64,000 nt of DNA, from NCBI RefSeq assembly GCF_011316935.1, contig NZ_WLYS01000002.1, positions 434,001 through 498,000 of the forward strand. The letters are read 5' to 3'. Positions within the stretch are counted from its first letter, which is position 1. Each line of letters starts with the position of its first letter. Shown in pieces: positions 6,856 to 50,972 of the stretch. Position numbers and translations under genes: made by a program. The notes below the pieces were generated by a model. The model did not search any database. It saw nothing but the letters and a program-made list of their open reading frames with translations, and had not been told where the DNA came from. The stretch is from Sphingobacterium chungjuense. Its GTDB lineage: Bacteria; Bacteroidota; Bacteroidia; Sphingobacteriales; Sphingobacteriaceae.

Positions 6856-6903
6856 AGCATAAAGAAGGGGCGAACATCTTGATGTTCGCCCCTTCTTTAT
6901 GCT
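6856..6903. terminator. Bidirectional hairpin terminator between lysS and the THX gene
   Basis: A perfect inverted repeat with 23-bp arms, 6856-6878 and 6881-6903, separated by TT. The inner stem is GGGGCGAACATC / GATGTTCGCCCC. The sides are AT-rich (AAAGAA / TTCTTT), giving a U-rich tail in both directions. It lies just after the lysS stop, and contains the stop codon of the minus-strand THX gene at 6897-6899. Confidence 0.85.
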
Positions 6904-47028: not shown

Positions 47029-47057
47029 TTGTTCTTCAAAATTATTTAATACGTTTG
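47029..47057 (+). promoter_or_regulatory. Promoter of fimbrillin-like gene 1
   Basis: TTG (47029-47031), an 18-bp spacer and TACGTTTG (47050-47057) match the Bacteroidota consensus. The ATG is 97 bp downstream, so a 5' UTR of about 90 nt is predicted. Confidence 0.7.
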
Positions 47058-47154: not shown

Positions 47155-48789
47155 ATGAAAATTATTTTACATTCCATCGTACTTTTATTTCTTTTATCTT
47201 GTAAATCAGAAAATTTAGGCAATCGTTCGCCTGGAGTTATTCAAGTCGGCATATCAGAGGTTTCTTTCGAATCGGAAGGAGCTATAGGTAATCGAGCGGT
47301 CACACCAACAGAGAGCACCATCCAGCGCAATACGATTGAGCTAAATAACAACTTATTAATGGTGGCCGAGCTACGACCAGTAGAACCTGTAACATTGGGT
47401 TTAAAAGATGGTGCTAAAGCAGCATTGGACACGACAGCACTTTCCAATAATATCCGATATCGCTTGTTGGTCTATAATCAGGCAGGAGCATTTGTAACCG
47501 AACGAAATTACATACACGGACAGGAAAGCAGTACTGAGCCCTTGATATTAGAAGGCGACAACACGTACACTTTCGTTGCGTTTTCGTTTAATAGTACGGC
47601 TGACGACTTACCAGCGGTAACTCCGGCCGCAGCCACCCGTACATTGGCCAATTCGCAAATAAGTGTTCCCAATACAGGTAGAACTGACTACATGTATTTT
47701 AGGCAGACGATGACTGTCGTGGAAAACACGATAAATCGTTTAAATATCGTCCTCAAACATCGAAAACCTCAGATCACGCCTACGATCAATTCCTCCGAAA
47801 CAGGCTATAACATCACCGCTATCGCAGCTCATTTTACACCCCACAATGATGGTATGGGGATCAATCTATCCAATGGTACTTATACTCAAATCGGCTCTGT
47901 AAGTGAGGCTAATATTACATCATTTTCCTCGTTGAATACCCAAAATGTTGTAGGTGCACCAGCTATAATCAATGCCCCTAGTAATCAGGCTACTATTTTC
48001 ACAATCACTTCTATGACAATAGGACCTTTAACTTTATCTAATTTGGTACCTTTTACAAACCTAACAGTCACAGCAGGTGTTCGGTATAATTTGATTTTAA
48101 ATATCGTACCAAGAGATGAGTATACAGTACGAGAGGGCGTACCATCTGCCAGGATAAATGGACGCATTTGGGCCTTGCATAATGTTGGTGTCCCTACCAC
48201 ATTAGACGCCAATCCGCTCATCATTACAGCTGCCCTGCATGGCAACTATTATCAGTTTGGAAGAAATCTCATTTCTGCTGCGCCGACAAGCAATACAGTT
48301 AATGCCAATTGGACCAACACGCCCGCGGCTGCTAACGCTTGGAATATGGGATCCGAGACAGCGGTAAGCAAGAGTGACGCCAATGATCCATGTCCATCGG
48401 GCTTTCGCTTACCAACAAGAACAAATATGCAAGAGCTTCTAGACGGAGTTGTTATTACTTTTAGAGGACCTACTACCGAGGGTAATGCAAATTTTAGTTC
48501 GGCCACCATATTAACCAGCAAAAGAAATGCTAATGTTGTTCTTGTATTGCCGAATCAGGGCTATATGAACCTTACCGGAACTAATCCACCAGTCTCTACA
48601 GGTATAACAGGTAGAGGTAGCACAGCACATTATTGGACAAGTTCTTCGTTAAATTCACAGGGATATCGATTACTGATAAATACCACATCTTCCGATGTAA
48701 GCGTACCCATTGGTAATTTCACCTTTGTACAGTCGCGGCCAATTAGATGTACTGCTACCTTGGCAACCAACCTTCCACCACAATCTTAA
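47155..48789 (+). CDS. Fimbrillin-like lipoprotein with C-terminal FISUMP domain (paralogue 1)
   Basis: A 544-residue surface lipoprotein. MKIILHSIVLLFLLSC gives lipid-anchoring Cys 16. The middle has beta-sandwich features of fimbrillin-type proteins (GLKDGAKAALDTTALSNNIR, RYRLLVYNQAGAFV, TRTLANSQI). The C-terminal part (about 365-540) reads HGNYYQFGRN, NDPCPSGFRLPTRT, HYWTSSS, RLLINTTSSD and SRPIRCT, the FISUMP (TIGR02145) pattern. It is probably a surface-exposed adhesin or fimbria-associated protein; partners such as FimA assembly genes are not nearby. It has a paralogue (49202-50854) with a 107-bp identical patch. Confidence 0.8.
   Translation: MKIILHSIVLLFLLSCKSENLGNRSPGVIQVGISEVSFESEGAIGNRAVTPTESTIQRNTIELNNNLLMVAELRPVEPVTLGLKDGAKAALDTTALSNNIRYRLLVYNQAGAFVTERNYIHGQESSTEPLILEGDNTYTFVAFSFNSTADDLPAVTPAAATRTLANSQISVPNTGRTDYMYFRQTMTVVENTINRLNIVLKHRKPQITPTINSSETGYNITAIAAHFTPHNDGMGINLSNGTYTQIGSVSEANITSFSSLNTQNVVGAPAIINAPSNQATIFTITSMTIGPLTLSNLVPFTNLTVTAGVRYNLILNIVPRDEYTVREGVPSARINGRIWALHNVGVPTTLDANPLIITAALHGNYYQFGRNLISAAPTSNTVNANWTNTPAAANAWNMGSETAVSKSDANDPCPSGFRLPTRTNMQELLDGVVITFRGPTTEGNANFSSATILTSKRNANVVLVLPNQGYMNLTGTNPPVSTGITGRGSTAHYWTSSSLNSQGYRLLINTTSSDVSVPIGNFTFVQSRPIRCTATLATNLPPQS
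47398..47504 (+). repeat. 107-bp identical patch, copy 1
   Basis: This segment, from GGTTTAAAAGATGG to GTAACCGAACG, is identical base by base to 49463-49569 in the paralogue. Flanking sequence of the two genes diverges strongly, including synonymous sites. This is the mark of a recent gene-conversion tract. Confidence 0.85.
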
Positions 48790-49201
48790 CATCGGCTATA
48801 ATATAGATATTCTCTTATTTCAGCTCTCTGACAAATGCTCCATTTTGTCAGAGAGTTTTTTATTTGAAGAGATGAAATGAATGCGCGAGAGGCACAGTTA
48901 TGTTCATCCTTTTCTATAATACAATAAGCCTTTTTTGCTGGGAAAATCAACGATATATTGATATTAGGTTAGATACGATATTTTCAAGTAATTCTGCTAT
49001 TGAGTTCTAAATCATGTTCACCTTACTTTCCGAATGTCTATGTGCACTTAGAAAGCGTACTTGTAGCGTTTCGCCTACATTTAGTAGTAAGTAATCATAT
49101 TTTAAGTTTGATGATTTTTATCTTTCCAAAGAAATTAATCTAAACCTAATTTATAACAAATTAGGGCTTTTTCTACGTTTTTTTTTTAAACAAAGCTCAT
49201 C
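48790..49201. other. Intergenic region between the two fimbrillin-like genes
   Basis: About 412 bp with a terminator near its left end and an AT-rich right part. An imperfect hairpin TGTAG/CTACA lies at 49062-49079. No consensus -33/-7 pair was found for paralogue 2; TACGTTTT around 49174 is the nearest -7 resemblance. Confidence 0.4.
48824..48861 (+). terminator. Terminator after fimbrillin-like gene 1
   Basis: CTCTCTGACAAA (48824-48835) pairs perfectly with TTTGTCAGAGAG (48844-48855), followed by TTTTTT. The two paralogues are thus separate transcription units. Confidence 0.85.
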
Positions 49202-50854
49202 ATGAAAAGTATTTTATACCTAAGCTTAGCATTAACATTTATATTATCTTGTAAGTCAGAAAATACTGTCGACCATTCGCTAGGACTTATTCAGGTTTCT
49301 GTCTCGGATGCCCTATATGAATCAGAGGAAACCTTAGGTAATCGAGCTGCCACTGCCCAGCAGCACGAAGCATTTTTAGAAAGCAATATTCGCCGTAATA
49401 CGATCGAAGTAGGAAACGATTTTCTCATGGTCGCAGAACTACGCCCTGAAGAACCACTATCAGGTTTAAAAGATGGTGCTAAAGCAGCATTGGACACGAC
49501 AGCACTTTCCAATAATATCCGATATCGCTTGTTGGTCTATAATCAGGCAGGAGCATTTGTAACCGAACGCGATTATATCCGCGGGCAGGAAGCTAGTACT
49601 GAAGCTTTACAACTAGATGGCGGCATTACGTATACTTTTGTCGTGTTTTCTATGAATCTCACGAGTAACTTACCAGCAACATTGCCGACCAATGCATCAA
49701 CTCGTACACTAGCCAACACCCAAATCACCACATCCACAGGCGCAAATGCTGTTATGTATTACAAGACTACAATGACTGTAAGTGGAAACGCCATTAATCG
49801 CTTAGACATTGTTTTGAGACATCGTAAGCCACAGATCACCGTCAGGATCAACTCTATCCAGACAGGCTATAATATAAGCGCAATAACTGCTGTATTCACT
49901 CCACATAATAACGGCACGTTAATTAACCTTTCAGATGGATCATACATACAAAATGGCACAAGTCAACCAGTTACAGCAAATTTCAACTCCTCAATACCTA
50001 GTCAGAATGTGGTTAGTAGCGGAAGTTACATTAATTCTCCAAATAATGACATCACCACATTTAACATCACTTCGATAACGATCGGACCACTTACACTAAG
50101 CAACTTAGTACCATTTAATAATTTGAATTTAACTGCCGGAGTTCGTTATAATCTTATTTTAAATATCGTACCAAGAGATGAGTATACTACGCATAATAAC
50201 GTACCGGTAGCACGTATCAATGGTAGACTCTGGGCATTGCACAATTTAGGAGTGAACACCACCCTTAATCACAACCCAACCACCATCACATCAGCACTAC
50301 ATGGCAACTATTATCAATTTGGAAGAAATGCAATAACAGCAGCACCAACTGCCACTACTACCAATTCAAATTTTAATAATATATTGGCTGCATCTAACGC
50401 TTGGAATGGTGGAACAGAAACCATCGCAATCAAGAATACTGCGAATGATCCATGTCCAGAACACTTCCGTGTTCCAACCAGAACCGATATGCAACAGCTA
50501 CTGGATGGTGTTGTTGTAACTAGGCGAGGATCTTTTACGACTAGCAATACAAATTTTGGCTCTGCCGCTATTTTAACCAGCAAACGGAACTCGAATGTAG
50601 TATTGGTACTACCTACTCAAGGTTTCATAAATGTTAACGGAGCAAATCCGCCTGTGTCTCTTCCTTTGGAAGATAGGGGAAATACTTCAAACTATTGGAC
50701 CAGTTCGGCCACAGCTGAAAAAAATCCATATCGATTACTTATAAGCAATACAACAGAGGTAGTTGGCATCCCTACTGGCACAACCAATTTTGCGCAATCC
50801 AGACCTATTAGGTGTACGGTACAAATGCAAACTACCCTCCCGCCACAATCTTAA
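49202..50854 (+). CDS. Fimbrillin-like lipoprotein with C-terminal FISUMP domain (paralogue 2)
   Basis: A 550-residue paralogue of the preceding gene, with MKSILYLSLALTFILSC as lipoprotein signal (Cys 17), the same GLKDGAKAALDTTALSNNIR block, LVPFNNLNLTAGVRYNLILN, and the FISUMP end HGNYYQFGRN, NDPCPEHFRVPTRT, NYWTSSA and SRPIRCT. Both proteins end with LPPQS. The N-terminal and loop regions differ widely, as expected for variable surface antigens or adhesins. It contains the second copy of the identical 107-bp patch. No strong T-tailed terminator was seen; a hairpin beside chaA may serve. Confidence 0.8.
   Translation: MKSILYLSLALTFILSCKSENTVDHSLGLIQVSVSDALYESEETLGNRAATAQQHEAFLESNIRRNTIEVGNDFLMVAELRPEEPLSGLKDGAKAALDTTALSNNIRYRLLVYNQAGAFVTERDYIRGQEASTEALQLDGGITYTFVVFSMNLTSNLPATLPTNASTRTLANTQITTSTGANAVMYYKTTMTVSGNAINRLDIVLRHRKPQITVRINSIQTGYNISAITAVFTPHNNGTLINLSDGSYIQNGTSQPVTANFNSSIPSQNVVSSGSYINSPNNDITTFNITSITIGPLTLSNLVPFNNLNLTAGVRYNLILNIVPRDEYTTHNNVPVARINGRLWALHNLGVNTTLNHNPTTITSALHGNYYQFGRNAITAAPTATTTNSNFNNILAASNAWNGGTETIAIKNTANDPCPEHFRVPTRTDMQQLLDGVVVTRRGSFTTSNTNFGSAAILTSKRNSNVVLVLPTQGFINVNGANPPVSLPLEDRGNTSNYWTSSATAEKNPYRLLISNTTEVVGIPTGTTNFAQSRPIRCTVQMQTTLPPQS
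49463..49569 (+). repeat. 107-bp identical patch, copy 2
   Basis: Identical to 47398-47504 in paralogue 1 over 107 bases, direct orientation, 2,065 bp apart. A second shared run of 32 bp, 48094-48125 and 50156-50187, lies further downstream in both genes. Confidence 0.85.
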
Positions 50855-50932: not shown

Positions 50933-50972
50933 AATTTTGCGACACACCATCAACAGCGTGTGTCGCAAAATT
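50933..50972 (+). promoter_or_regulatory. Hairpin directly upstream of chaA
   Basis: AATTTTGCGACACAC (50933-50947) pairs perfectly with GTGTGTCGCAAAATT (50958-50972), with a 10-nt loop and only 4 nt before the chaA ATG. It could end the upstream fimbrillin-like mRNA, control chaA translation, or be a dyad operator. No T tract follows. Confidence 0.5.

Follow-up and report, generated by a model that had tools for sequence, protein, structure and literature searches.

Genes A and B and the sequence that they share

The stretch of DNA analysed here, called the window throughout, comprises 64,000 nucleotides of contig NZ_WLYS01000002.1 of Sphingobacterium chungjuense, the genome of which (G000) amounts to 3,868,855 bases in 18 contigs. 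It carries two consecutive genes for predicted lipoproteins, A and B, which share a patch of 107 bp that is identical at every base; the origin of this patch is the subject of this report. For comparison we used further genomes, among them that of S. corticibacter (G106), which belongs to the same genus.

When aligned, the two gene products have 350 of 541 residues in common (65% identity), and a signal peptide and lipobox can be recognized by eye in both (LLSC in A and ILSC in B). The C-terminal part of each protein resembles the FISUMP domain: PF09603 scores 15.2 bits for A and 26.7 bits for B against a curated cut-off of 33.9, and TIGR02145 scores 26.0 and 25.1 bits, respectively (E about 1e-5 to 2e-5), against a curated cut-off of 41.65. 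As these matches lie below the cut-offs, we classify A and B as FISUMP-like only. A first-pass annotation of the window, made from the sequence alone, had called the pair fimbrillin-like/FISUMP genes. The FISUMP label is borne out in part, with PF09603 matching 11 of 11 aligned family members at E ≤ 0.1 (best 5.5e-9) but without reaching the curated cut-offs. The fimbrillin-like label finds no support: Pfam gave no fimbrillin family for the N-terminal part at E ≤ 1 (A and B) or E ≤ 0.1 (11 members), NCBIfam gave none at E ≤ 1 (three proteins), and the N-terminal part had no other match in either. Mfa2 was likewise not matched in the Pfam searches of A, B and the family members. A search of solved structures in the PDB with the family profile gave no match at E ≤ 1, and an AlphaFold2 model calculated with seven sequences was too poor to be used (mean pLDDT 38.0, pTM 0.30). 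A search of G000 with A returns 11 matches (E ≤ 0.001), and one with the family profile returns 12 (E ≤ 1e-30); at the latter threshold the profile finds a match in 59 of 93 genomes of the genus. This is a little-studied lipoprotein family on which the literature is sparse.

The two genes share two exact direct repeats, of 107 and 32 bp, at corresponding positions (Table 1). Both had been reported in the first-pass annotation; they are real, neither can be extended without a mismatch, and the window holds no further exact direct repeats of 24 bp or longer. In G000 the full 107-bp patch has only these two copies, the next best site being 79% identical over 56 bp, and a plasmid search with the patch gave no match.

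Table 1. Features of the A/B locus, in window positions
Feature	Position	Strand	Description
Gene A	47155..48789	+	ORF; predicted lipoprotein of 544 aa; N-terminal part without family match and C-terminal FISUMP-like domain
Gene B	49202..50854	+	ORF; 550 aa; tandem paralogue of A; begins 412 bp past the A stop codon
107-bp tract in A, probably from conversion	47398..47504	+	Codons 82-116 and two bases of codon 117
107-bp tract in B, probably from conversion	49463..49569	+	Codons 88-122 and two bases of codon 123
32-bp identical run in A	48094..48125	+	Just 5' of the FISUMP-like domain; borderline versus chance
32-bp identical run in B	50156..50187	+	Just 5' of the FISUMP-like domain; borderline versus chance
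Possible Bacteroidota -7 element TACGTTTG	47050..47057	+	97 nt 5' of A; weak, may be due to chance in AT-rich DNA
Possible -7 element TAAGTTTG	49103..49110	+	91 nt 5' of B; weak, may be due to chance in AT-rich DNA

Silent divergence inside and outside the patch

A and B have 342 degenerate codons at which both encode the same residue. None of the 35 such codons in the 107-bp patch differs silently, compared with 167 of 307 outside (168 in a second codon alignment). The flanks are diverged, as the first-pass annotation had it, and silent divergence is not equally low across the genes. The longest silent run, which spans these 35 codons, was matched in none of 10,000 permutations, and about 9e-9 silent runs of patch length are expected by chance. 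The ends of the tract are sharp: the first base past each end already differs between A and B, and a segment of 30 codons starting at 47494, which includes the last patch codons, has silent differences at 10 of 21 codons. Within the tract the 95% upper bound on the silent codon difference is 8%, against 54% outside, which makes the event young in comparison with the duplication, although its date need not be very recent.

Silent divergence at the patch columns was also compared with that elsewhere in 16 family members from three genomes. In the 53 cross-genome pairs that include neither A nor B, 671 of 1106 codons differ silently inside the patch columns (0.61) and 7492 of 12,038 outside (0.62). 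The corresponding values for the 38 within-genome pairs without A or B are 433 of 842 (0.51) and 4447 of 9304 (0.48). The 107-bp tract is thus not conserved at the base level in its homologues. The same cannot be said as cleanly of the 32-bp run, the columns of which are less silently diverged in the 53 cross-genome pairs (194 of 377, 0.51) than those elsewhere (0.62). This run covers 10 silent codons and, with the 107-bp patch removed, has a permutation P of 0.0507; as a second patch its identity stands, its signal beyond chance is borderline, and taken alone it is weak, suggestive evidence for conversion.

The same signature across the family

The longest-silent-run permutation test was applied to 44 family ORFs from ten genomes, in stretches that were chosen so as to favour tandem pairs, defined as genes on the same strand less than 5 kb apart. 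The 135 within-genome pairs, which are not independent of each other, included 127 with at least 60 silent codons; these were scored and the other eight were dropped. Values of p < 0.01 were obtained for six of 13 tandem pairs, none of two adjacent pairs on opposite strands, three of 32 distant pairs on the same contig and none of 80 pairs on different contigs. All three significant distant pairs are from C6 of S. corticibacter. As a control we used cross-genome pairs of members of at least 480 aa with at least 30% protein identity; p < 0.01 was reached by two of these 310 pairs (two of 59 at ≥45% identity), both of them near-orthologues with 87% and 92% protein identity. Runs of 93, 53, 44 and 39 bp without a mismatch occur in a further tandem pair of G000, C15:93779/95759, with 61% identity overall. 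Several very similar tandem pairs are non-significant, for example those in G045 C6 (94% identity, p = 0.42) and in G028 (85%, p = 0.50).

Larger mosaics are found in two of the genomes. The S. corticibacter gene C6:83684 resembles C6:81716 over its first ∼50 codons, which the two have in common, but shares the greater part of its body with C6:89098. Another gene of this contig, C6:85641, agrees with C6:136162, ∼49 kb away, at 205 of 238 silent codons in the N-terminal part and 25 of 73 in the C-terminal part (Fisher 5e-17); with C6:89098 the agreement is 101 of 186 and 103 of 148, respectively. In G045 the gene C3:2299 agrees with C3:194 at 265 of 265 N-terminal and 53 of 107 C-terminal silent codons (Fisher 2.5e-35), and with C6:59998 at 59 of 136 and 141 of 163 (Fisher 1.6e-15). 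The recombinant member of such pairs cannot be named in every case. Half-gene swaps are seen only in S. corticibacter and G045; in G000 none of the 13 listed pairs shows a difference between the N- and C-terminal parts (lowest Fisher value 0.17). Two pairs have long identical portions: the G045 C3 pair is identical at 331 of 332 codon positions from the second codon and diverged afterwards, and the S. corticibacter tandem pair C6:134050-135768/136162-137763 is identical over 1202 bp, after which the C-terminal parts diverge.

Several pairs have segments that lie or end in the conserved linker between the two domains (B residues ∼320-345), which is also where A and B share their 32-bp run. This segmentation counts identical codons and is biased towards conserved protein, and the recurrence is given as a description. 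In the control set three of 310 cross-genome pairs have segments, one of which (289-331) reaches the linker stretch. In view of these linker segments it is plausible that conserved patches serve as anchors for recombination, as the first-pass annotation proposed.

Three individual copies may be noted separately. The C6:136162 ORF stops early and does not have the RC-motif end of its partner 134050. A truncated family gene without a signal peptide (L045 5717-6202) is a decaying copy, as is G000 C15:158565-160256, a family gene broken by an in-frame stop.

Origin of the patch

We consider the 107-bp identity to be the result of a fairly recent ectopic gene conversion between A and B by homologous recombination, with a probability of about 0.92. 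This reading is preferred because the tract is exact, its ends are sharp, silent divergence is high on both sides, the tract is free of base-level constraint and similar events are found in the family. Recent conversion between tandem paralogues had already been put forward in the first-pass annotation, and the permutations and the unconstrained patch columns now support it. Its further suggestion, that such exchange generates antigenic or adhesive variants, is conjectural. In bacteria, RecA can join stretches that match in part, and a conversion tract results if one strand is copied during repair of the joint. A and B would be old tandem duplicates within one lipoprotein family, and in the fairly recent past 107 bp or more of one gene would have been copied onto the corresponding part of the other. 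The exchange was presumably ectopic, non-reciprocal and RecA-dependent, and probably needed no specialized enzyme. The protein segment that the tract encodes, GLKDGAKAALDTTALSNNIRYRLLVYNQAGAFVTER, is well conserved, and pairing would be likeliest there, and the process may serve to diversify surface lipoproteins.

Selection on the DNA itself, through an overlapping element, a regulatory RNA or codon-level constraint, could also keep a patch identical, and the protein segment encoded here is indeed well conserved in the family. When A or B is compared with other members (28 pairs), silent divergence is slightly lower inside the patch columns (348 of 656, 0.53) than outside (4025 of 6530, 0.62), and the columns of the 32-bp run are mildly less diverged in general. 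Selection of this kind predicts low silent divergence at the patch columns in all homologues; the near-equal values in the 53 cross-genome pairs rule it out for the 107-bp patch in this set of 16 genes from three genomes, the within-genome pairs agree and G000 has no further full copy, so that we give it very little chance. Another rival is a partial duplication, an unequal crossing-over between array members or an import from another strain by transformation, which we regard as very improbable. Genes are evidently gained or lost at this locus, since A and B are both missing from the syntenic interval in S. corticibacter and in G057, and the G045 C3 pair and the S. corticibacter 134050/136162 pair resemble the products of larger duplications or crossovers. 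The 107-bp patch, however, has diverged sequence on both sides in both genes and so calls for two close exchanges, whereas simple unequal crossing-over leaves one junction; the end product is in any case the same type of homologous recombination. An assembly or consensus artefact might be suspected in a draft genome of 18 contigs, but both copies lie in a single contig of 712,890 bp with different flanking sequence and the same pattern occurs in the assemblies of other species, which makes such an error highly improbable.

A diversity-generating retroelement (DGR) would mutate the FISUMP-like C-terminus by retrohoming, and the identical blocks would be the part left unmutated. In gut metagenomes, DGRs have been reported to target lipoproteins with the Fib_succ_major domain, and the target described in that account has, like A and B, this domain at its C-terminus, together with an Mfa2 (fimbria anchor) domain (PMC4159848). 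The S. corticibacter pair with 1202 identical bp and a diverged C-terminal end would also fit. RVT_1 (PF00078), however, was found in none of four genomes searched, the same search being positive in three of 14 control genomes. Mismatches are not confined to adenine: in the divergent tail that follows the 1202-bp identity 49 of 87 involve an adenine and all six mismatch types are present, and 285 of the 553 mismatches between A and B are at third codon positions. The A/B patch, moreover, sits in the N-terminal part. Together, the lack of RVT_1 matches and the spread of the mismatches over other bases speak against a DGR, although no search aimed at template repeats was made, and we rate this explanation as scarcely credible. 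A and B thus differ from the published target in having no RVT_1, no adenine-confined mismatches and no Mfa2, and they vary by exchange between paralogues. Silent-cassette variation was also rejected. In systems of the pilE/pilS, vlsE and tprK type, promoterless partial donors contribute segments that recur in the expressed gene. A and B are both full ORFs with signal peptides (by eye), and the truncated copy C15:85716-86198 shares no run of at least 22 bp with the six stretches of its own genome that were compared; partial copies below the search thresholds are outside this result.

Besides the shortfall in the 28 pairs with A or B, several results weigh against conversion or narrow what can be concluded from it. 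The two cross-species near-orthologous pairs at p < 0.01 show the signature where paralogues of one genome are not involved. One of them, S. corticibacter C1:1195273 (L043 5965-7632) with G000 C17:136966-138609, has 87% protein and 56% silent identity and an identical run of 74 bp (p = 0.0001), which within-genome conversion leaves unexplained; it may stem from uneven divergence or from exchange between species. The excess of significant tandem over distant pairs also shrinks as the pairs are matched for protein identity: it is six of 12 versus three of 39 at ≥45% identity (Fisher 0.003), six of 11 versus three of 23 at ≥50% (Fisher 0.03) and six of 11 versus three of 11 at ≥55% (Fisher 0.39). 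Much of the tandem excess can be put down to sequence similarity, and tandem placement as an independent driver of exchange finds no support at the highest of these thresholds. The evidence from A and B comes from one strain, and the event has not been seen as a polymorphism. Finally, G+C content at third codon positions is 0.31 in the patch, 0.36 in the B flank and 0.46 in the A flank, which is too weak a difference to name the donor; when this was examined together with the outgroup identities, neither A nor B was decisively favoured.

Between them, three species (S. chungjuense, S. corticibacter and G045) show conversion tracts as well as module chimeras, and these bacteria seem to remodel this lipoprotein family repeatedly by recombination between gene copies. 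This family-wide mosaic pattern, a known process in a little-studied family, is of more interest than the 107-bp patch by itself. A bolder and rather doubtful extension would be that FISUMP-type surface lipoproteins of the genus are shuffled combinatorially, with N-terminal segments and whole C-terminal FISUMP-like modules moving between tandem and distant paralogues, often by way of the conserved inter-domain linker; homologous recombination would then do what retroelements do to the same class in gut Bacteroidota. Should the C-terminal module prove to be a binding domain, such exchange could alter binding specificity without a dedicated diversification machine. Whole-gene trees of the family mix different histories and call for caution, and the family offers a concrete place in which to seek strain-level variation in Sphingobacterium.

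Comparison with known systems

The open-access literature searched, judged mostly from listings, yielded no account of conversion affecting FISUMP genes; for Sphingobacterium and gene conversion nothing there was relevant by title, and no paper on S. corticibacter was found. The Bab proteins of Helicobacter pylori belong to a different family from A and B, and the two tuf copies of Salmonella are nearly identical. As A and B are only 65% identical in protein, their pairing, unlike that of tuf, must use short matching stretches.

Ectopic conversion of this kind is well known elsewhere, and the bab genes are an example: intragenomic recombination among the surface-protein paralogues babA, babB and babC is described as giving chimeric genes, with exchange in particular parts of the gene, as in A and B (PMC4552749). 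The bab chimeras differ in having been observed in clinical isolates and in being able to relocate a phase-variable CT repeat (PMC4552749), whereas A and B are known from one strain. For the Salmonella tuf duplicates, non-reciprocal exchange between two chromosomal copies is reported from experiments, with mismatch repair shortening the tracts (PMC5485169). Closer relatives offer two further parallels. The relevant section on 'Candidatus Ornithobacterium hominis', also a member of the Bacteroidota, gives up to 17 PF09603 genes per genome and a set that varies between samples; it reports the presence of genes, and conversion is not mentioned in that section (PMC6421346). In Porphyromonas gingivalis, again in the Bacteroidota, domain rearrangement and allelic exchange, with gene conversion also proposed, are described as sources of variation in surface proteins, the discussion including Mfa fimbriae and RagAB; this account differs in its emphasis on horizontal transfer between strains and in concerning a host-associated species (PMC5266723).

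Neighbouring genes and minor features

The neighbours of A and B are SusC and SusD genes (assigned by Pfam) and cation-exchanger-like, BCCT-like transporter and PepSY-like genes (labelled by eye). Their proteins are 88-97% identical in S. corticibacter and 74-93% identical in G057, in the same order. Where A and B would be expected in S. corticibacter C1 (L080), between SusD and the exchanger-like gene, there is a degenerate stretch that resembles A codons 24-54. Its best match in the family is A (31 residues, 45% identity, E = 2e-4 when that interval alone is searched), followed by C15:159414 (E = 9e-4); at the nucleotide level the match scores 29.2 bits, with 100 shuffled controls reaching up to 30.1. 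We tentatively regard this stretch as a relic of a lost A orthologue. A gain of A and B by insertion in S. chungjuense only is weakened by this putative relic, and loss in S. corticibacter is also possible.

The candidate promoter elements in Table 1 were picked by comparison with the Bacteroidota -7 consensus. If the one 5' of B is genuine, B need not rely on the promoter of A.

After B, a palindrome, TTTTGCGACACACC...GTGTGTCGCAAAA, at 50935-50970 lies six bases 5' of the ATG (50977) of the cation-exchanger-like gene; it is the same in S. corticibacter and not conserved in G057, and is possibly a regulator site or a terminator. Elsewhere in the window a hairpin at 6856-6903, with perfect arms of 23 bp and a 2-nt gap, lies between two convergent ORFs and is probably a strong terminator.

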